Shown here in pieces: positions 54,360 through 63,447 of a DNA stretch of 64,000 nucleotides. Each line of letters starts with the position of its first letter. Within the stretch, counting starts at the first letter, position 1. The stretch spans positions 2,232,001 through 2,296,000 of the forward strand of contig NZ_CP108938.1 of assembly GCF_036347135.1 (NCBI RefSeq), given 5' to 3'. A program made the translations under genes and the position numbers. The notes under the pieces are model-generated. The model was not told the DNA's origin and made no database searches. It worked only from the letters and a program-made list of their open reading frames with translations. Source of the stretch: Streptomyces sp. NBC_00775. Its GTDB lineage: Bacteria; Actinomycetota; Actinomycetes; Streptomycetales; Streptomycetaceae.

Positions 54360-55170
54360 CCATCTGCCCTACGCCTACGACGTGCGCGGCAGCGGCCCCG
54401 TACTGCTGGTCATCCCTGGCGGGGCCGGTCATCCCATGGGCCTGGAGGCCGTCACCACGCGCCTCGCCGAACGGTTCACCGTCGTGACGTACGACCCGCT
54501 GGGGCTGTCGCGCGGGCCGCTGGACGAGCCGGTCGGCGACCAGCGGGTGGAGGCGTGGAGCGACAACGCCCACCAGCTCCTCGAAGCCGTGCTTCCGGAC
54601 GGCGAGTCCGCGTACGTCTTCGGCACCAGCTCCGGCGGCATCGTCGCCCTGGACCTGCTGGCCCGCCACCCTGAACGGCTGCGGCGCGTGGTCGCCCACG
54701 AGCCGCCGACCGTGGAGGTGCTGCCCGACGCGGCTCGACAGCGGGCGATGGTCGGGGAGGTGGACACGATCTGCCGCACGGAGGGTGTCGGGCCCGCGAT
54801 GGCGCGCCTCAACGCCGGTCTGGAGTACCGCACTTGGACTCCTCCGACGCCGTCCCCGCGCCCGGCCGACGCGGACACGGGCACGGGCACCCCCATGGGC
54901 ATCTTCCTCGCCCACGTCCTGCGCCCCTTCGCCACCCACACACCGGACCTGGACACCCTCAAGCGCCAGTCCTCCCGGCTCACCCTCGGCGCGGGCCACG
55001 ACTCGCGGCACCAACTCCCGCACCGTACGGCCGTGTCGCTCGCCGAACACAGCGGCGCCGACCTCATCGAGTTCCCCGGGGGGCACCTGGGCTGTCTGGA
55101 ACACCCCGTCGAGTTCGCGGAACGCCTCGCCCGTGCGCTACTTGCGGTCACCCCCCAGACGCAGCGCTGA
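54352..55170 (+). CDS. Alpha/beta hydrolase under TetR control
   Basis: Hydrolase of 272 residues. Oxyanion loop VIPGGAGHP, VVTYDPLGLSRG strand, nucleophile Ser93 in FGTSSGG, and a late FPGGHLGCLEHP with the His. It is coupled to the TetR gene by an 8-base overlap and is presumably induced by its substrate or product. Its 3' end overlaps the convergent TPR gene by 33 bases. Substrate unknown. Confidence 0.85.
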   Translation: MSDHLPYAYDVRGSGPVLLVIPGGAGHPMGLEAVTTRLAERFTVVTYDPLGLSRGPLDEPVGDQRVEAWSDNAHQLLEAVLPDGESAYVFGTSSGGIVALDLLARHPERLRRVVAHEPPTVEVLPDAARQRAMVGEVDTICRTEGVGPAMARLNAGLEYRTWTPPTPSPRPADADTGTGTPMGIFLAHVLRPFATHTPDLDTLKRQSSRLTLGAGHDSRHQLPHRTAVSLAEHSGADLIEFPGGHLGCLEHPVEFAERLARALLAVTPQTQR

Positions 55171-58100
55171 ATCGCCGAGGCTTGGAGAGGTGACGTCCGG
55201 TCCGGCGCCAAGGAGTGCCGCCAGTTCATCCCCCCAGGTGAGACCGGATCGCAGCTCGACAAGGCGCCCGAGCAATCGCTTCCCCGTGGCGCTCAAGTGC
55301 TCCGACTCCACCCGCAGATCCACCATGGCCACGTCGACCAGACCACAGCGGCGCGCTTCGGGCTCCTGGTCCAGCAGGCGTATGGCGCGCCGGTGGGCGA
55401 CCTCCGCCTCGTCGTCGTTCTGCGAGGCCAGAGCCACCAGGGCGATATCGAACAGGATTCCGGAAGGGGTGGACTCGCCGTTGGCCAGAGCCGAGCGCAG
55501 TGACGCTCCCGCTTCGTCGAACCGCCCCAGCCTGTACTGACACCATCCCCTGTTCCATTCGTAGCGGGTGGAGGATCCCTCGTAGCGGCTCAGGGCCTTT
55601 TCGTACGCCGCACGCGCTTCATCGCGCCTGCCCAGGGCGTACAGGACATTCGCCTGTCCCTTCTTGGCGTCGGCGTCGGCCGGTTTGAGCCTGAGCGCCA
55701 GCTCGAAGGCGGCGAGGGCCTCCTGCCACAGCGACTCCGACCCGTTCTCGAGCGCGCTGCCCAGCGCGTCGGCCGCCTCCGCCATGGCGGTGCGGCCCGC
55801 CAGTGCCATGCGGCCGGCCTCAGCGGCGTGCGTCCACGCACCGATCTCTACCAGGACCTCGCAGTACAGCGTCCAGATCCACGGGTCCATGGGGTCCAGA
55901 TCCGTCGCGCGGCGGAACGCCTCGATGCTCTCCGCGTAGTGACCCGCTCGTGCCTGCAAGGCGCCCAAGTCGGCCTGTGTGTAAGGGTCCTCCGGGACCT
56001 CCCACGCGAGCTGGGAAAGATTGTGCAGGGCCTCCTCCTGCCTCCCCGACTCCCACTGCGCCCAGCCCAGCGCGCTGCGCAGTTCGATGTCCTCGGGCCA
56101 GCGCCACAGTGTCTGCTCGATGACGCCGATCGCCTCCGTCGGCCGCCCGACCAGACGCTCGGTCTCGCTGTAGAGCGCGACGAGGCCCGCGGTGGCCTCC
56201 TCGTCCTCCGCGGCGGCGCGCACCAGCTCCACTGCCTCATCGGCACGGTCGGTGTCCAGCAAGGTGTCGCGCAACAGCCGGAGCGCGCCGATCAGCCGAG
56301 GCCGCGCCTCTGCCGCCACCCGCAGATCCGCCTCCCCGCCCTCCACCTCACCTCGGCCGAGCCGGACCGAGCCGCGTACGAAACGTGCCGGCGCGTCGTC
56401 GGCCACTTCGGCCAGGACCCGCTCCGCCTGGTCGAAGGCATCGTCCGCCCTGCCGAGGGACTGATACGCGTCGCACAGCTGCGAACGTGCCCAGAGCATC
56501 TCCGGGTCCAGCTCCAGGGCGTACTCCAACTCCCCCACACACTCGGCGAGACGGTCGCGGTTCTTCAAGTGGAATCCGCGGGCGCTGTGCGCCTGAGCTC
56601 GGTCGATGCCCGACTCGTCCGCCCTGCGCACCGCCTCGTCCAGCTCGTCGAGAGCGGCCTCCATCCGGCCCTGCTGGTCCAGGGCTTCGGCCAGGTTGAT
56701 ACGTGCCGCGATGGCGTCGGGGTCCATCTCGACCGTGGTGCGCAGCGACTCCTCGGCCTGGGCGAACTTCCCGAGCTCCAGTCGTACGGCACCCAGCCGG
56801 GCGTGGGTCTCCGCCGTCGCGACCACGCCCTCAGCGGGTTCGGCCGCGATGACCATATGGACCTCGGCGTCGCGGGGCCGTCCCGCGATCAGCAGGGCCC
56901 AGCCCATGATGTCGTGCAGCCTGACGTCGTCGGGAGCAAGTGCCAGGGCCCGTTCCATCACGGTGACGGCGTCCTCGGGCCTCCCGTCCACGACAAGTGC
57001 GAACGCCAGCATCTGGTAATCCTCCGGTGTGCTCGGCTTGTGCAGGAGCAGGCGCCGCACCTCCCGCCGCGCGCCCTCGCTGTCCCCGAGCGACGACAGG
57101 ACGACCCCGAGACGGAAGCGGACGACGGGTGATGTCCGGTCCACGGCCTCCCGCAGGTACTTGACGACCTCGTTCAGCAGCTCCTCGTCTCTCGCGGTCA
57201 TCGCCATGTCCGCGAGGGCGATCAGCGCCTCTTCCGCGAAGGGATCGACGCGCAGCGCCTTCCGGTAGGACTCCACGGCTTCGCTCGTCGAATTCCTCCG
57301 GATGGACTGGACGTCCCCCAGACGCACCCACGCCTCCACCCACCGTGGCGCGTCGCGCGTGGCGGCGGCGAGGTGGTCCAGCGCGGCTTCGTGCTCGCCC
57401 AGCCCGAACAGCGTCAGCCCGAGCTCTCCTTCCAGCCGGTGGAACCGGATTCCCGAGTCGATGACGGTGTCGAGGTCCGCCTTGGCGCCCGCGAAGTCGG
57501 CGACACGGCGGCGCGCCTGGGCACGCACCCACACGTTCGTCATGTCGTCGGGAACCAGCTCGACCGCCCGGTCCAGCAGCGGTTCTGCCTCGGGGAAACG
57601 CCCCTGTTCGCACAGCACGATGGCCAAGTCCCGCACGACCACAGGCTCGTCGGGCAGCCGCTCGTGCGCCGCTCGCAGCGCCTCCTCGGCGTCGGCCCAA
57701 CGCCAGAGTCCGTGTTCGGCGAGGCCCGTGAGCACCGTGACGCGAGGGTCCTCGGGCACGCGGTCGCGCAGGGACAGAGCAGCGTTCAAAGCCTCCTCGG
57801 CGTGCCCGGCGGCGAGCAGGATCTGGGCCGCCGCGAACAGGACTCCCGGCTCGTTCCCTTCGGTACGCAGCACACGTTCCACCGTCGCCAGCGCGTCGTC
57901 GTCGCGGCCACTGCGAGCAGCCAGCTCGGCGGCCGCGAGCTGGACGTCGAGGTGGTCCGTCCGGTCCGTGAGGGTACCCATCCACGTATCCGCCAGAGGC
58001 TGGCTCACCGCCGCGGGAATCAGCTCGGCCAGCGGCACGTACAGACGGCTCAGTTCCGGATCCATCGTCAACGCCTGGGCGTAATCGCGTAAGGCGGCCT

Positions 58101-58758
58101 CGGTGTCCCCCGAGGAGAGGTGGAGGTCGCCGAGAGCGGCCCAGGCCCGGGCCGCGACCACTTCCTCACCGACGTCCCCCGCCAACTCCGCGCAAAGCCT
58201 GGCCGGATGTTCACAGCCCGGGGAAGCCTCGAAGGAGGCCAGCGCATGCAGGTACGCCTGTCGCGGGTTCCCGGCCCGGTGGACGGCGAGGGCCAGGAGG
58301 TAGGCGGTCGTGCCGTCCGGGCGGGACTTCGCCATGGACTGGAGCAGTCTGACCGCCTCATCGGTATGGCCGTGGTGGAGCAGCACCATCGCGCCGAGCT
58401 GATCGTCCGGGGTGAGGTCGGCGTATCCGGGCGCCAAGTTCGGTGACGGCGGTGTGTCCAGCGGCTCGTCGGCCAGCCACCGCATGGCTCGTACGCTTTC
58501 CAGAGCACCGTGCAGCACCGGGTGGTTGCTCTCGCGGTCGAACTCCAGCGCGTGCTCGCATGCCTCGACGATGGCGTCGAGCCCGCTGCCGAGAACGTCC
58601 GTACCGGAATACCAGTACGCGTTCCACACCGACCGGATCCGCAGCCACAGGACGCTCGGCGAGACGGTCAGCCTGGCCCGGCGCCCATCGCGCCAGAGCC
58701 CGTCGAAGGGGACGGAGAACGGCGGGGAAGTCGGGCTACTGCTGTCGTCGGTACTCAT
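55138..58758 (-). CDS. Large TPR-repeat protein of the metalloprotease-like operon
   Basis: Soluble protein of 1206 residues and last gene of a four-gene operon. The first 110 residues are unique (LWRDGRRARLTVSPSVLWLR). From about 115 to 1150 it is a nearly continuous series of TPR-like helical pairs, roughly 25-30, with motifs such as WAALGDLHLSSGDTEAALRDY and NVLYALGRRDEARAAYEKAL. Such solenoids serve as scaffolds or sensors. Its start lies inside the upstream gene (23-base overlap), so it is translationally coupled. Codon 223 is TTA (58090-58092), suggesting bldA dependence. There is no catalytic domain. It shares no sequence landmark with known regulators that I recognise. Confidence 0.85.
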   Translation of the reverse strand: MSTDDSSSPTSPPFSVPFDGLWRDGRRARLTVSPSVLWLRIRSVWNAYWYSGTDVLGSGLDAIVEACEHALEFDRESNHPVLHGALESVRAMRWLADEPLDTPPSPNLAPGYADLTPDDQLGAMVLLHHGHTDEAVRLLQSMAKSRPDGTTAYLLALAVHRAGNPRQAYLHALASFEASPGCEHPARLCAELAGDVGEEVVAARAWAALGDLHLSSGDTEAALRDYAQALTMDPELSRLYVPLAELIPAAVSQPLADTWMGTLTDRTDHLDVQLAAAELAARSGRDDDALATVERVLRTEGNEPGVLFAAAQILLAAGHAEEALNAALSLRDRVPEDPRVTVLTGLAEHGLWRWADAEEALRAAHERLPDEPVVVRDLAIVLCEQGRFPEAEPLLDRAVELVPDDMTNVWVRAQARRRVADFAGAKADLDTVIDSGIRFHRLEGELGLTLFGLGEHEAALDHLAAATRDAPRWVEAWVRLGDVQSIRRNSTSEAVESYRKALRVDPFAEEALIALADMAMTARDEELLNEVVKYLREAVDRTSPVVRFRLGVVLSSLGDSEGARREVRRLLLHKPSTPEDYQMLAFALVVDGRPEDAVTVMERALALAPDDVRLHDIMGWALLIAGRPRDAEVHMVIAAEPAEGVVATAETHARLGAVRLELGKFAQAEESLRTTVEMDPDAIAARINLAEALDQQGRMEAALDELDEAVRRADESGIDRAQAHSARGFHLKNRDRLAECVGELEYALELDPEMLWARSQLCDAYQSLGRADDAFDQAERVLAEVADDAPARFVRGSVRLGRGEVEGGEADLRVAAEARPRLIGALRLLRDTLLDTDRADEAVELVRAAAEDEEATAGLVALYSETERLVGRPTEAIGVIEQTLWRWPEDIELRSALGWAQWESGRQEEALHNLSQLAWEVPEDPYTQADLGALQARAGHYAESIEAFRRATDLDPMDPWIWTLYCEVLVEIGAWTHAAEAGRMALAGRTAMAEAADALGSALENGSESLWQEALAAFELALRLKPADADAKKGQANVLYALGRRDEARAAYEKALSRYEGSSTRYEWNRGWCQYRLGRFDEAGASLRSALANGESTPSGILFDIALVALASQNDDEAEVAHRRAIRLLDQEPEARRCGLVDVAMVDLRVESEHLSATGKRLLGRLVELRSGLTWGDELAALLGAGPDVTSPSLGDSALRLGGDRK

Positions 58759-60226
58759 CAGGTCGCTCCCAGGCCATCGGAGTGCTGTGTGAGGGGCGCG
58801 GCTTGCCGGCTCCGCGCGGGGAAGGCCGTCCCTGTGACTGTTTGTTGCCCGGGAGCAACTCGACGACCCGGCCGGCTATGGCTTCGACGTCGGCCCCCTT
58901 GTGGGTGCGGGCCCGCCACGCGGCGTTGAGGAGCACCACCACGTTGACATCCACGGGCCTGACCGACCGCGTCACGGTGTCCTCCAACAGCAGGGCGGCC
59001 GTGTGCGTGACGTTCTCCCACACGACATCACGGCTGCTGGGAACGCCGAGGCCGTTCAGAAAACCGTGCGCCCAAGCGACGAACTGCCGCCTCACCTCCG
59101 TGTCCGCCGGTGTCGCGTCCGGGGGATCCTGGGGCAGGAATACCTGAACGGCGAGCCGCCACATGTCGCTCAGTTCGGCGACCGCACCGCTGTAGTCGTC
59201 GAATTCGTAGCGCGGCGCCGCGTGCGACAGCATGTCCAGAATGACCTGTGCCCGCGACAGGTCGTCCGGGAGGTCCGGCGTCTTGTGACCGCTGTAGGGA
59301 TACAGCCGCAGTTCCAGCATGGCGTGGGCGTAGGCCGGCCCCAGCGTGTAGGCCCCGAACGCGTCGGCGAGCAGATGCTGAACCTGCTCCAGCGTGCCGA
59401 GCCGGTCCTCCCCGACGAAGGGGGCCAGCTCTCCGGGACCCTCCTTGGGCAACTCGGCGTGGGCGAAGGCCAGTCCGATCTCATGGGCCGCCGCGGGAAC
59501 ACTCCATACGGTCCACTCGGGAAAGCCGACCTTCACCACGTGGCTGAGGCTGAGGGCGGCCTCGTGCGCGGGCATGGACAGCGCCGGGGCATGAGGAAGG
59601 GTCGCGCTGATGAGCTCGTCGACAAGGTCACAGATATGGCCGTCGAGCGCGGTGTCCCGGACGGCGATACCCCCGAGGAAGTCGACGTAGGCGGCGAACA
59701 GGGGCTGGACGGTCTCATCCATGATCTGGCGGTACTGCTTCCACAGTTCGGCGGCCTCTTCCCCCTCCTCGTCCAGGCGCTCCGTGAGCTGCTCGATCTT
59801 GCTGGTGACCGTGGCGCACTTCTGATCGATCTCGATCTTGATCTTGTCCCCGATCCTCTTCCGGTCGCCGGAGAGATTGACCATGCCGTCCTGGATGGAC
59901 TGGAGGGTCCTCCTGGTCTCCATCACTTTCTGCCAGATCGACCTGACGTCGTCGGCCGACCGGGTGAGAACCTCGAAGAACTCCCCGTCCACCCGCTTCA
60001 CCTCGTCCTCGTCGAGGTCGAGGAACCCGAGGTCGTGGGCGCGGCCCAGATCGCTCACGAGGCGGTCCACGTTCCCGATCGGAGCCAGCATCTCCAACAG
60101 CAGTTCATTGGCTCTCCGGAGGCCCGCGGCACGCTGACGCGCCGTCTCGACCGCTTCGCCCACCTTCTTCATGGCGGAGGTGAGGGTCTCCAGGCGGGTG
60201 CGCAGCACTCCTCGGTCATCCGGCAT
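58736..60226 (-). CDS. Paralogue of the HEFGH protein with degenerate metal site and coiled-coil N-terminus
   Basis: Protein of 496 residues, function unknown. Residues 5-170 are long helices with heptad character (RTRLETLTSAMKKVGEAVE, ATVTSKIEQLTERLDEE). The C-terminal half is homologous to the neighbouring HEFGH protein: TVWSVPAAAHEIGL here against TVWDLPVVAHEFGH there, and LADAFGAYTLGPAYAHA (286-302) against AADAYATYTLGPAYAYA. The second His of HExxH is Leu (HEIGL, 248-252) and the third-ligand Glu position appears lost, so it is probably catalytically inactive. Both end with a NAAW motif. GAGGAGG precedes the ATG. It overlaps the TPR gene by 23 bases. Confidence 0.8.
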   Translation of the reverse strand: MPDDRGVLRTRLETLTSAMKKVGEAVETARQRAAGLRRANELLLEMLAPIGNVDRLVSDLGRAHDLGFLDLDEDEVKRVDGEFFEVLTRSADDVRSIWQKVMETRRTLQSIQDGMVNLSGDRKRIGDKIKIEIDQKCATVTSKIEQLTERLDEEGEEAAELWKQYRQIMDETVQPLFAAYVDFLGGIAVRDTALDGHICDLVDELISATLPHAPALSMPAHEAALSLSHVVKVGFPEWTVWSVPAAAHEIGLAFAHAELPKEGPGELAPFVGEDRLGTLEQVQHLLADAFGAYTLGPAYAHAMLELRLYPYSGHKTPDLPDDLSRAQVILDMLSHAAPRYEFDDYSGAVAELSDMWRLAVQVFLPQDPPDATPADTEVRRQFVAWAHGFLNGLGVPSSRDVVWENVTHTAALLLEDTVTRSVRPVDVNVVVLLNAAWRARTHKGADVEAIAGRVVELLPGNKQSQGRPSPRGAGKPRPSHSTPMAWERPDEYRRQQ

Positions 60227-60241
60227 CCCAGTGCCTCCTCG

Positions 60242-61435
60242 CTATGGGCCCGACGTGGAGCAGATGAGCTTGAGCGCCCGGGCGTTGACGCGGGGGCCCA
60301 GAGCGGAGAAGCGATCCCACTCACCCAGTCGCCACGACCACGCGGCGTTGACGACGTGGGCCGGCGTGGTGCCGGACGGCAGGCTCACTTCACCGTCCGC
60401 GGTCAGACACTCCATGATCGAAGCCGGTCGTGAGCCCGCGTCGTACAGCGCGTCATGGGCGTGCCTCGCCAGGCATTCGACCAGGACATCGGCGTGACGG
60501 GCCACGTGAGCTGCCGTGCGAGGGGCGACGGGCGGACTGTCCGTCATGCTCCGCCACAGGGCTTCGACGCAGTCCGCCGCCTGGGCGTACTGCTGGCGTC
60601 CCGTGCGGCGCTTGATCGCGCGCAGCACCGCGGCGGCCAGATGGATGCGCCGGCACCAGGAGGGGTGCGTCGTCGGACTCCGCATCGCTCTCGTGGGGTC
60701 GACCCGCAGGACCAGGCACGCGTAGGCGTAGGCCGGTCCCAGCGTGTACGTCGCGTAGGCGTCGGCGGCTGTCTCCTCGAGGCGGAGCTTCGCGGCGTCC
60801 GCGTCCGCGGAAGCCTGCGGGTCCCCCTTCCTGAACCGCACCTCGGCAGCGAGGTTGTCCTGGGTGAAGCGCTTCAGCGGCCGCTCGTCGTTGCCGCTCA
60901 CATGGCGCAGTTCCCGGACCAGGTGGTGCCCGAACTCATGGGCTACGACCGGCAGATCCCAGACCGTCACCGCGGGGAACGGGAGCCGCACGAGGTCGAG
61001 CGTGTGGTTGATCGACGCGGACCCGGCCGACATGCCCGTGACGATCCGATGGCGGACCTGTGATCCGGCGCCGAGGTACGCCAGGAAGGCGTCGGCCGCG
61101 TCTCCGCTTCCCCTGTCCAGAAGATGCACCCGGTACAGCACACTCTCCAGAAAGCACTGCGCCTCGATCACCACCTTTTCGGCCCGCTCGAGAAGGCGGT
61201 TGAGCCGATCCCAGGAGATGGTGTCGCCTTTTCTCCCGGCCGCCAGTGCGGCGATGCCGTCGAGTTCCGTCGCCAAGTCCCGGGCCAGGGAGTCGTAATG
61301 CCTCGCCGTGGGCAGGAACCGCGCGTCGCCGTCCACCACATCCGTGATCAACGCGGCGATGCGCAGCAGTTTCTCCCGCTCGCAGTGCACGCGCTGGGTC
61401 AGCACGTCGACGGAACCGGGGTAGTCGGAGATCAT
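60242..61435 (-). CDS. HEXXH metalloprotease-like protein
   Basis: Predicted zinc-dependent peptidase of 397 residues. HEFGH at 166-170 provides two His ligands and the catalytic Glu; EETAAD at 220-225 offers a Glu third ligand in the ExxAD pattern of gluzincins. The N-terminal 150 residues are helical. The C-terminus has VVNAAWSWRLGEWDRF, also recognisable in the next gene. There is no signal peptide. The start overlaps the membrane-protein stop (ATGA), and the paralogue follows after 15 bases. I cannot assign it to a named peptidase family. Target unknown; the companion paralogue, TPR protein and membrane protein may regulate or deliver it. Confidence 0.8.
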   Translation of the reverse strand: MISDYPGSVDVLTQRVHCEREKLLRIAALITDVVDGDARFLPTARHYDSLARDLATELDGIAALAAGRKGDTISWDRLNRLLERAEKVVIEAQCFLESVLYRVHLLDRGSGDAADAFLAYLGAGSQVRHRIVTGMSAGSASINHTLDLVRLPFPAVTVWDLPVVAHEFGHHLVRELRHVSGNDERPLKRFTQDNLAAEVRFRKGDPQASADADAAKLRLEETAADAYATYTLGPAYAYACLVLRVDPTRAMRSPTTHPSWCRRIHLAAAVLRAIKRRTGRQQYAQAADCVEALWRSMTDSPPVAPRTAAHVARHADVLVECLARHAHDALYDAGSRPASIMECLTADGEVSLPSGTTPAHVVNAAWSWRLGEWDRFSALGPRVNARALKLICSTSGP

Positions 61436-62559
61436 CGCACCGCGCCCCGCACGATGCTCCGTACACCGGTGACCCCGGACGGCAGATTCCAGGCGTCCGA
61501 GTAGTCGGCGGCGAGCACGAACGCACCGGCCAGGATGAGCACTCCGCCCCCGCCGAGCACCATGGGCAGATGAACGGCGCCGCCCGCCAGGCCCAGCAGC
61601 CAGCCCACGACGCCCACCAGGGCCGCCGCCGCACCGGCCAGCATGTCGGCGGTCCGGTCGTATCGCCGCGTCAGATCGAGCAACGACGCGGCGGCCCCGT
61701 CCAGCCGGTCCCGGTCCAGGCCCGTCCCGGCCAGACAGCTGTCGATGTCGCGCTCGACGCCCTGGAAGCCGAGCAGCCCGCTCACCACCACGGCTCCCGG
61801 AGCGGTTCCGGTGGCCAGCCGTTCCAGCAGACCGGCCGTATCCTCGCGGACGCGCTCCAGAACCTCGCCGGACACAAGCCGGCTGAGCGCCGCCAGAGCC
61901 CGCTCCACGGCACGCAGGGCAAGCCGTAACAGGGTGCCGCCCGCCTCCTGCAGACGCAGGGTCCGGCCGAGTCCGTCGAGCCACTCCGCGACCGGAACCC
62001 TGTTCCGGGAGAGTTCGGCGACGACATCCCCGACCACACCGGCCGCCCGCTCGGCGATCACGTTCAGCGTCGCCGCCGCTTCCCGCCGCACCCTCGCCGC
62101 GGCGGTCTCCGCATCGGCCGAGACCGCCGTCGCGTCCTCGACGCCCAGGGCGAGCGAGGGATCGGAACCAGTGGCGCGCTCCAGGACCAGGGTGACGGCC
62201 TGGAGTTCCCCGATCGAGTGGTCGAGCGCTGTGGGATCCGGAGACCCGCCACCCTCCCCAACAGCCTCGCTCGCGGCGAACAGCGACCCCGCCAAGGACA
62301 ACTGGCAGAAGGCCGCTGTCACGGAGTCGTCCAGCCCTTCCGGGCGGCCCATGGCAAGCTCCTCGCCGGCCTCGAAGTGCCGGACACCCCCGGAGCCGGT
62401 CTGTCCCATGGCCTCGAGTGCGGCCGCCTCCAGCTCCTGTACCGCATAACCGACCGCCCCTTGGCCCTGCTCCAGCGCGTCACGCAGATAGCGGGAAGCG
62501 GAGAGGACCGATCGGGCAGCACCGAGCATGTGCTCCCCGTTGGCACCGTTCGACGCCAT
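61432..62559 (-). CDS. Helical protein with two C-terminal membrane segments, first gene of the operon
   Basis: Protein of 375 residues, not recognised. The first 290 residues are Ala-rich helices (LSASRYLRDALEQGQGAVGYAVQELEAAALEAM, ARVRREAAATLNVIAERAAGVVGDVV). Two adjacent hydrophobic segments close the protein (LAGAAAALVGVVGWLLGLAGG and VLGGGGVLILAGAFVLA), a likely membrane hairpin. Codon 211 is TTA (61927-61929). The ATG at 62559 gives MASNGANGE; an in-frame start 12 codons earlier is less likely. It is coupled to the HEFGH gene by 4 bases. It could anchor the complex or act as a membrane effector. Confidence 0.75.
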   Translation of the reverse strand: MASNGANGEHMLGAARSVLSASRYLRDALEQGQGAVGYAVQELEAAALEAMGQTGSGGVRHFEAGEELAMGRPEGLDDSVTAAFCQLSLAGSLFAASEAVGEGGGSPDPTALDHSIGELQAVTLVLERATGSDPSLALGVEDATAVSADAETAAARVRREAAATLNVIAERAAGVVGDVVAELSRNRVPVAEWLDGLGRTLRLQEAGGTLLRLALRAVERALAALSRLVSGEVLERVREDTAGLLERLATGTAPGAVVVSGLLGFQGVERDIDSCLAGTGLDRDRLDGAAASLLDLTRRYDRTADMLAGAAAALVGVVGWLLGLAGGAVHLPMVLGGGGVLILAGAFVLAADYSDAWNLPSGVTGVRSIVRGAVR

Positions 62560-62676
62560 AGCCGGACCACCCCCTTGGCCGAGCCATCGCTCCATTGTGT
62601 GGCCGGACGAGCACGTTTCACCACACTCGCGACAGAACCTGTCGGAATGATGGTTCTGCCCCGGCCTATAGGCCTT
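62560..62676 (-). promoter_or_regulatory. Promoter region of the metalloprotease-like operon
   Basis: The 117-base gap contains an AGAACC/GGTTCT inverted repeat (about 62632-62656) and the perfect palindrome GGCCTATAGGCC at 62663-62674, immediately after the stop of the leftward PEP mutase-like gene. The latter may be a weak terminator or an operator. Confidence 0.5.
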
Positions 62677-63447
62677 TCAGCTCCGCTCGGGAGAACTCAG
62701 CGCCTGCACCTCGTCGTACGACGGCACGGCGCCCTGGGGCGACCGCCCGCCCCGGATGTCCGCCACCGCCTCCAGAACCGCGCCGAGCGCCCGCCGGTAG
62801 AGCAGCGAGCCGAGGCTGACCCTGCGTACGCCCAGGTCGCCGAGGTGGGCGACGGTCGGTCCTGAGGGTGAGTAGAGGATGTTGAGCGGGACGTCGAGGG
62901 TCTTCAACAGGGCGGAGATCCGGACCGGGTCGGTCAGGCCTGGGACGAACACGCCGTCGGCGCCCGACTGTTGGTAGGCGTCGAGGCGGCGGAGCGTCTC
63001 CCGCTCGTCCTTGTCGCCGTCGCCCAGCCAGTGCGTGTCGGTGCGGGCGTTGACGAAGAGGTCCGGCGCGGCGGCCTTCACGGCGGCGATCTTCGCGGCG
63101 TGCAGGGCGATGGAGCCGAGGCCGTCCTCCAGGTTGATGCCGACGGCCCCGGCGTCGGCCAGTGCGCGCGCCAACTCGGCTACCTCGTCCGGATCTTGGG
63201 CGAAGCCGTCCTCCGCGTCCACCGACAGCAGGTACGAGCCGGCGCCGAGGAGCCGGGTGAGGCTCAGCGTAAGGTCCCTGGTCGCCGCCGCGCCGTCCGG
63301 CAGACCGGCGGGCGCGGCCACGCCCAGACTCGTCGTGCCGATCGCCTCGAAGCCCTGGGCGGCGAGAAGCGCCGCGGAGGCGTGGTCCCAGGCGTTGGGC
63401 AGGAGGAGGGGGGTGTCGGCGTGGTGGAGCGCGGCGAAGGGGGTCAT
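62677..63447 (-). CDS. Isocitrate lyase/PEP mutase family enzyme
   Basis: TIM-barrel enzyme of 256 residues. The metal-binding segment is SVDAEDGFAQ, followed by GINLEDGLGS and LFVNARTDTHW, the standard blocks of the PEPM/ICL superfamily (including oxaloacetate decarboxylase and 2-methylisocitrate lyase relatives). The Cys-containing loop of true isocitrate lyases (KKCGH) is not seen, so lyase activity on a different substrate is likely. Its ATG overlaps the stop of the DinB-like gene (ATGA), so the two form one operon. Substrate unknown. Confidence 0.83.
   Translation of the reverse strand: MTPFAALHHADTPLLLPNAWDHASAALLAAQGFEAIGTTSLGVAAPAGLPDGAAATRDLTLSLTRLLGAGSYLLSVDAEDGFAQDPDEVAELARALADAGAVGINLEDGLGSIALHAAKIAAVKAAAPDLFVNARTDTHWLGDGDKDERETLRRLDAYQQSGADGVFVPGLTDPVRISALLKTLDVPLNILYSPSGPTVAHLGDLGVRRVSLGSLLYRRALGAVLEAVADIRGGRSPQGAVPSYDEVQALSSPERS

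Follow-up and report, generated by a model that had tools for sequence, protein, structure and literature searches.

The locus described here raises the question of what four closely packed genes do together. The genes, named A to D, lie in a 64,000-nucleotide stretch of Streptomyces sp. NBC_00775 (contig NZ_CP108938.1, positions 2,232,001 to 2,296,000; the window), and an original prediction, made from the letters alone, had seen in them a metalloprotease-like protein with a degenerate paralogue, a giant TPR protein and a membrane protein. Its description of the locus was accurate. The coordinates bear out four leftward, tightly coupled genes, with A and B overlapping by 4 bases (ATGA), a gap of 15 bases between B and C, and an overlap of 23 bases between C and D. 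HEFGH and EETAAD are present in the product of B and HEIGL in that of C; the protein of about 1200 residues is D (1206 residues, TPR families by Pfam), and the two-helix membrane protein is A, with two C-terminal hydrophobic segments. A longer frame for gene A opens at 62595, and no sigma-70-type promoter or terminator-like site was found between 62400 and 62760. The four-gene unit is a real cassette that is described by no library searched. As to its function, we give an even chance to a role in conflict or cell death, for which the unit would encode a latent M48-like protease that its pseudoenzyme regulates on a membrane-located TPR scaffold.

Whether the four families co-occur elsewhere had been singled out beforehand as a potential refutation. 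They do co-occur, at eight actinobacterial loci including the window: two Streptomyces, Nonomuraea typhae, G1064, Umezawaea, Cellulomonas and two genomes (G1335 and G1346) of the Umezawaea family sample. The order is A-B-C-D at seven of these, A being cut by the contig end in Cellulomonas, and the eighth, Streptomyces sp. ERV7, has B-C-D with another membrane protein. Overlaps of 4 bases were seen at several gene junctions across the loci. As the same genes recur in the same order in other genera, and as the HE..H/HP pattern of B is rare in shuffled sequences (see below), the gene set is beyond chance.

The cassette is rare. Protein searches (single-sequence, profile and with A) each scored about 8,000 candidates. 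Relatives of B at E ≤ 0.001 numbered four, itself included (search of 5.8 billion; 7,998 candidates scored), and the profile search gave fewer full-length relatives than the single-sequence search. Two of the proteins found, P0002 (a B) and P0014 (an A), both from 10,397-base contigs, probably share one contig. B is present in 2 of 392 Streptomyces genomes and in 1 of 396 genomes of a phylum sample, counting in each case the genome of the window. A first scan of genome contigs gave no B relatives; an alignment-based scan gave Nonomuraea typhae (L006), Cellulomonas biazotea (L007), Umezawaea endophytica (L008) and Streptomyces sp. ERV7 (L009, the same place as L005). All four came from a single peptide pattern, so other loci may be missed. 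Four genomes searched individually gave two matches each, B and C adjacent. In the Nonomuraea, Umezawaea and Cellulomonas family samples any match was found in 13/298, 19/346 and 1/200 genomes and a strong adjacent B-C pair in 2, 3 and 1 (the query genome included each time), which contributed G1064, G1335 and G1346; within the genus Nonomuraea the figures were 5/54 and 2/54.

That the set is undescribed, as had been claimed, agrees with the finding that no Pfam, NCBIfam or PADLOC model reaches its cut-off with A, B or C of the window. Against PADLOC, D reached E values of 1e-5 to 1e-3 only (TPR, PrimPol, PDC-M16B) and C only values of at least 0.05; A and B gave none. Literature searches brought up no paper recognised as describing the cassette, which is not proof of absence.

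Judged from its flanks, the cassette is a clean insertion that moves as a block. Its two neighbours are adjacent in three Streptomyces genomes. In one of these (L082) the stretch homologous to the window breaks off at 55130 and picks up again at 62698, with 36 bases in between; the flank spacing at the empty site is 197 bases in L083 and 64 bases in L084. Two Nonomuraea genomes have the cassette flanked by an aldehyde dehydrogenase gene on one side and a conserved gene on the other. The latter is found in 12 of 54 Nonomuraea; in the other ten the dehydrogenase stands where the cassette would be (in two of them across a gap of about 0.6 kb), and none of these ten has a match to B. Presence in some genomes beside a clean absence from relatives is common among defence and self-killing systems. 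The insertion ends are not paired by any of the 20 largest of 28 direct-repeat families, and the GC content of the cassette is nothing unusual.

At the shared Nonomuraea site, protein identity is 41% for C, 58% for B, 58% for A and 63% for D; the median for same-site neighbours (n = 26) is 85% (61-96). The cassette proteins are four of the five lowest among 30 reciprocal best pairs between the two genomes, and their B proteins are sisters in the tree of B. Pairwise ratios of non-synonymous to synonymous substitution rates (dN/dS) for A to D are 0.64, 0.79, 1.01 and 0.64, against 0.16 and 0.18 for two neighbours. These values are upper bounds, because synonymous sites probably saturate at a GC content of about 0.93 in third codon positions, and protein identity was therefore used as the measure of divergence. 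Either rapid evolution or allele exchange would account for it.

The best reading of B, from its conserved residues, is a putative M48-like zinc protease. By alignment, the M48 ligand set (HEXXH, a zinc-type glutamate and HPX4R including the zinc-capping plug histidine) is present in 11/11 B proteins, all of which also have A or S at position 224 together with E221 and D225. The pattern HE..H-x(30,140)-HP.{4}R occurs in 11/11 B and 0/8 C proteins and in 52 of 55,000 shuffles of B proteins. Its spacing follows the definition of the HPX4R plug in the available part of PMC7950410 (30-140 residues past HEXXH), where BepA is described as gated by its HP plug. The AlphaFold2 model of window B has a predicted local distance difference test (pLDDT) score of 90.6; the alignment behind it (A12) had 21 rows, excluding the Cellulomonas and Umezawaea C proteins. 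The VIA matches of B include the M48 proteases BepA, 3c37 and ZMPSTE24. Comparison of B with M48 by hhalign gave a probability of only 35%, and searching the PDB by sequence and by profile yielded chance-level matches only. Weak protease-type Pfam matches were obtained among the 11 B proteins: MPTase-PolyVal in two (best E 0.014), Peptidase_M78 in one (0.13) and Peptidase_M48 in one (0.28). Hydropathy analysis found no hydrophobic segments in B, C or D of the window.

B and C are homologous end to end (hhalign 99.9%, E 1.8e-34). The original prediction of an active enzyme paired with a pseudoenzyme is supported by the alignments, in which the zinc ligands are present in 11/11 B proteins and the second histidine of HEXXH is gone in 8/8 C proteins. 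The plug histidine is also lost in 8/8 C and the zinc glutamate in 7/8, while the catalytic glutamate and G169, G233, Y236, R263, W366 and R369 are retained in all eight. In a tree of 23 proteins, 7/8 C proteins form one clade (support 95/96) and 9/11 B proteins another (99/96). B_ERV7, P0004 and C_ERV7 fall outside both, and the branch of C_ERV7 is the longest among B and C (1.88). As most B and most C proteins group in separate clades, the duplication is probably old, and B and C have therefore probably been together since before these genera acquired the cassette. The Umezawaea C used in the tree and alignments is the 3' piece only. The reading frame of this gene is shifted (L008 about 11600), which marks either a pseudogene or a sequencing error.

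Window D matches TPR_19 best (E 3e-57), has TPRs throughout and matches 7/7 other D proteins (blastp E 3e-8 to 4e-94, TPR repeats included). Homologues of A occupy the same position at six more loci, five of them aligned (A10) and the sixth a Cellulomonas fragment, in which only the C-terminal part of A stands ahead of the contig end (profile E 7.6e-20 among 2 sequences). At one hydropathy threshold, two C-terminal segments are seen in the window, N. typhae, G1064 and G1335; they overlap in Umezawaea and the Cellulomonas fragment, and G1346 has a single segment. In ERV7 gene A is replaced by a three-segment membrane protein that overlaps the end of D (L005:12301-13032) and is not matched by the A profile. 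A membrane protein is thus present at 8/8 loci, and because that of ERV7 is unrelated to A, the membrane part looks exchangeable. The Nonomuraea A proteins (P0006-P0013) range from 350 to 444 residues, by eye mostly through a glycine-rich stretch.

We propose that this horizontally moved actinobacterial cassette would encode one membrane-tethered proteolytic switch. B would be a latent M48-like zinc protease in which His257 of its own HP plug caps the zinc. C would be a dedicated regulator acting on B by contact, most likely through a B-C dimer, as the pseudo-caspase FLIP(L) acts on caspase-8. D would be the TPR platform that senses a trigger and joins or releases B and C, and A, or the unrelated membrane protein of the one variant, would anchor the complex and be its likeliest substrate or effector. 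The triggered proteolysis would damage or reprogram the cell, and its likeliest purpose would be conflict with a phage or other invader, or programmed death. This purpose is suggested by the mobility of the block, its patchiness, its fast divergence, the kinship of B with proteases of CHAT operons and one Lamassu neighbour (the last two are described below), each of which alone falls short of proving defence. A zincin death switch can also be pictured by analogy with caspase-8 and FLIP(L), in which B and C sit on D as a giant TPR sensor, an invader signal frees the plug, B cuts the membrane hairpin of A, the membrane opens and the infected hypha dies; we think this unlikely.

Several results weigh against the proposed switch. 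The M48 likeness of B is weak by profile and structure, unrelated helical proteins scoring above the M48 enzymes, and window B has no match to PF01435 (Pfam M48) over cut-off. Support is poor for grouping every B (61/47) or every C (65/26) in a single clade. The structural model of A is too poor to use (pLDDT only 55.7); on the question of a gasdermin fold, A offers that score and no Pfam match over cut-off. The Pfam scan of D gave TPRs and no other domain. No relative of B was found in plasmids or phages (tblastn) or in viral contigs, and the fast divergence could be an exchange of old alleles. The CHAT-operon link amounts to 125 columns and 4 of 27 weak-match genomes, and no clear PADLOC system was found in the scanned flanks of the six loci besides Cellulomonas (three proteins for G1064).

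The main rival is membrane-protein quality control, with B, C and D forming an HtpX- or BepA-like M48 complex, A as its anchor and D as substrate receptor. M48 proteases have membrane proteins as targets, and in BepA an M48 domain is united with TPRs (available part of PMC7950410); the VIA matches named above and the presence of a membrane protein at every locus would fit. The patchy distribution (2/392 Streptomyces) and clean empty sites are, however, unlike housekeeping, the window genome has nine PF01435 matches elsewhere, and the divergence is fast, so we hold quality control to be unlikely too. A toxin-like role between bacteria, with B a harmful protease blocked by C as an immunity-type paralogue, appears improbable. 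Paralogue pairs can be enzyme and inhibitor, and C is the one of the four proteins that diverges fastest when the Nonomuraea pair is compared (identity 41%; upper bound of dN/dS about 1.0), but window B and C lack a hydrophobic segment, D and a membrane protein, superfluous in a two-part system, accompany the pair at 8/8 loci, and C retains fold residues including the catalytic glutamate. Rather improbable is a switch of regulated proteolysis that is specific to the lineage, uses D as its scaffold and serves development, secretion or secondary metabolism: the named hosts are all actinobacteria and several are filamentous, but Cellulomonas is not a sporulating mycelial genus, and the gene neighbours, judged from gene starts, differ from locus to locus except between the two Nonomuraea. 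Coincidental neighbours with unrelated functions had no finding in their favour, have next to no probability and are refuted by recurrence, the genes overlapping, keeping the same order at 7/8 loci and being inserted or absent as a block.

The proposed switch can be set beside known systems. B resembles peptidase family M48 (BepA, HtpX, ZMPSTE24/Ste24) in having HEXXH, a downstream glutamate and HPX4R; it differs in having no PF01435 match, no hydrophobic segment and its TPRs on a separate protein, and the cassette differs from M48 systems in that a zinc-less paralogue adjoins B at 8/8 loci. The fold of caspase-8 is unrelated to that of B. The pair of caspase-8 and FLIP(L), an animal system, is an analogy of working only, a protease under an inactive paralogue (excerpts of PMC7586951). 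Multi-gene sets with peptidases, inactive peptidase domains included, have been described as conflict systems (in the available parts of PMC7159879 and PMC8195603), and an inactive zincin-like domain is reported in other conflict systems (PMC8195603, same part). To the extent of these excerpts, MoxR-vWA ternary and other peptidase conflict systems are like the cassette in having peptidases, inactive peptidase domains, TPRs and membrane parts; unlike them, A to D contain no MoxR, vWA, STAND, caspase or trypsin domain by Pfam. Lit is a phage-exclusion protease. The Lit peptidase (E. coli prophage, U49) fits the HEXXH-HPX4R pattern in the available part of PMC7950410, and it is by this motif pattern alone that Lit and B are likened.

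In 27 genomes of the Nonomuraea and Umezawaea family samples B has weak matches (E 1e-12 to 1e-3), which, to judge by those read, would form a broader family. At the four loci read, the order is a CHAT-ATPase gene, a gene for 1540-1770 residues and an HEXXH protein of 386-453 residues, followed in three by a trypsin gene. Pfam confirmed CHAT in 4/4 and trypsin in 3/3 tested; the fourth locus has a mycothiol-isomerase-like gene in the trypsin position. No Pfam model matched the HEXXH proteins of these operons. They share with B a common core of 125 columns (hhalign 97.7%, E 1.6e-12), a GPAY-type region and a place in a multi-gene operon. It is not the same system, as the partners are a CHAT-ATPase (4/4) and trypsin (3/4) and a pseudo-copy was not seen, whereas A to D of the window have no CHAT, AAA or trypsin domain by Pfam.

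Table 1 Features of the cassette and of related operons (window positions unless a locus name is given)
Feature	Position	Strand	Description	Basis
Gene A	61432..62559	-	375-residue membrane protein, mainly helical N-terminal part, C-terminal hydrophobic pair	family: none
Gene B	60242..61435	-	397-residue M48-like zinc protease (predicted)	HEXXH + ExxAD + HPX4R; AlphaFold2 model; M48 among VIA matches
HEFGH, B residues 166-170	60926..60940	-	predicted zinc-binding/catalytic motif	H166, E167, H170 in 11/11 B
ETAAD, B residues 221-225	60761..60775	-	E221 the predicted third zinc ligand	E221 and D225 in 11/11 B
HPSWCRR, B residues 257-263	60647..60667	-	predicted active-site plug (HPX4R)	11/11 B
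Gene C	58736..60226	-	496-residue putative pseudoprotease, N-terminal part longer than in B	homology to B, zinc ligands lost
HEIGL, C residues 248-252	59471..59485	-	degenerate HEXXH	second His missing in 8/8 C
Gene D	55138..58758	-	1206-residue TPR solenoid	Pfam TPR families
Inserted segment	55131..62697	.	7,567 bases, absent in three relatives	flank homology breaks
CHAT-ATPase operons	L055:911-10438, L056:8023-15514, L057:2677-12005, L058:1252-10738		Umezawaea and Nonomuraea family samples	

Were the cassette a defence or death system, the known repertoire would gain a protease family together with a dedicated bacterial pseudoprotease and a membrane module, and this in the actinobacteria, where unexplained conflict genes abound. 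Even otherwise, a conserved pair of an active and a zinc-less M48-like protein with an operon-encoded scaffold would be a tractable model of pseudoenzyme control, and the compact size of the cassette eases transfer of the whole unit into a laboratory Streptomyces. The recognition of the cassette as an insertion and of an M48-type plug motif in B goes beyond the original prediction.

Directly downstream of the Cellulomonas biazotea cassette (L007:7643-11231) are Lamassu LmuA, LmuC and LmuB (E 4.8e-82, 5.5e-40 and 1.9e-189). The PADLOC flank scan (E ≤ 1e-15) covered 161 proteins at the seven non-window loci, these three included: 58 of 88 listed flank proteins of N. typhae, G1064 and Umezawaea (three from G1064, whose others are mostly counterparts of N. 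typhae ones) and 100 of 115 of ERV7, G1335, G1346 and Cellulomonas, plus the three full Lamassu frames. The lists omit proteins of more than 1,000 residues or containing X. The other matches, to mad3 (4 and 4 members, best E 9.9e-48), mad8 (1, 1e-24), AriA (1, 1.4e-17) and C3a206 'TAP-like protein' (1, 6.4e-102), are assumed to be ATPases of a common kind and a hydrolase. The idea that the cassette clusters with defence genes is thus weak: it holds for Cellulomonas and not for the six other scanned loci. About 7.5 kb before the N. typhae cassette a frame whose start lies beyond the locus (L006:2-1381) has a leucine-rich-repeat match (E 2e-4), and its product looks by eye like the end of an NLR-type (nucleotide-binding, leucine-rich-repeat) protein.

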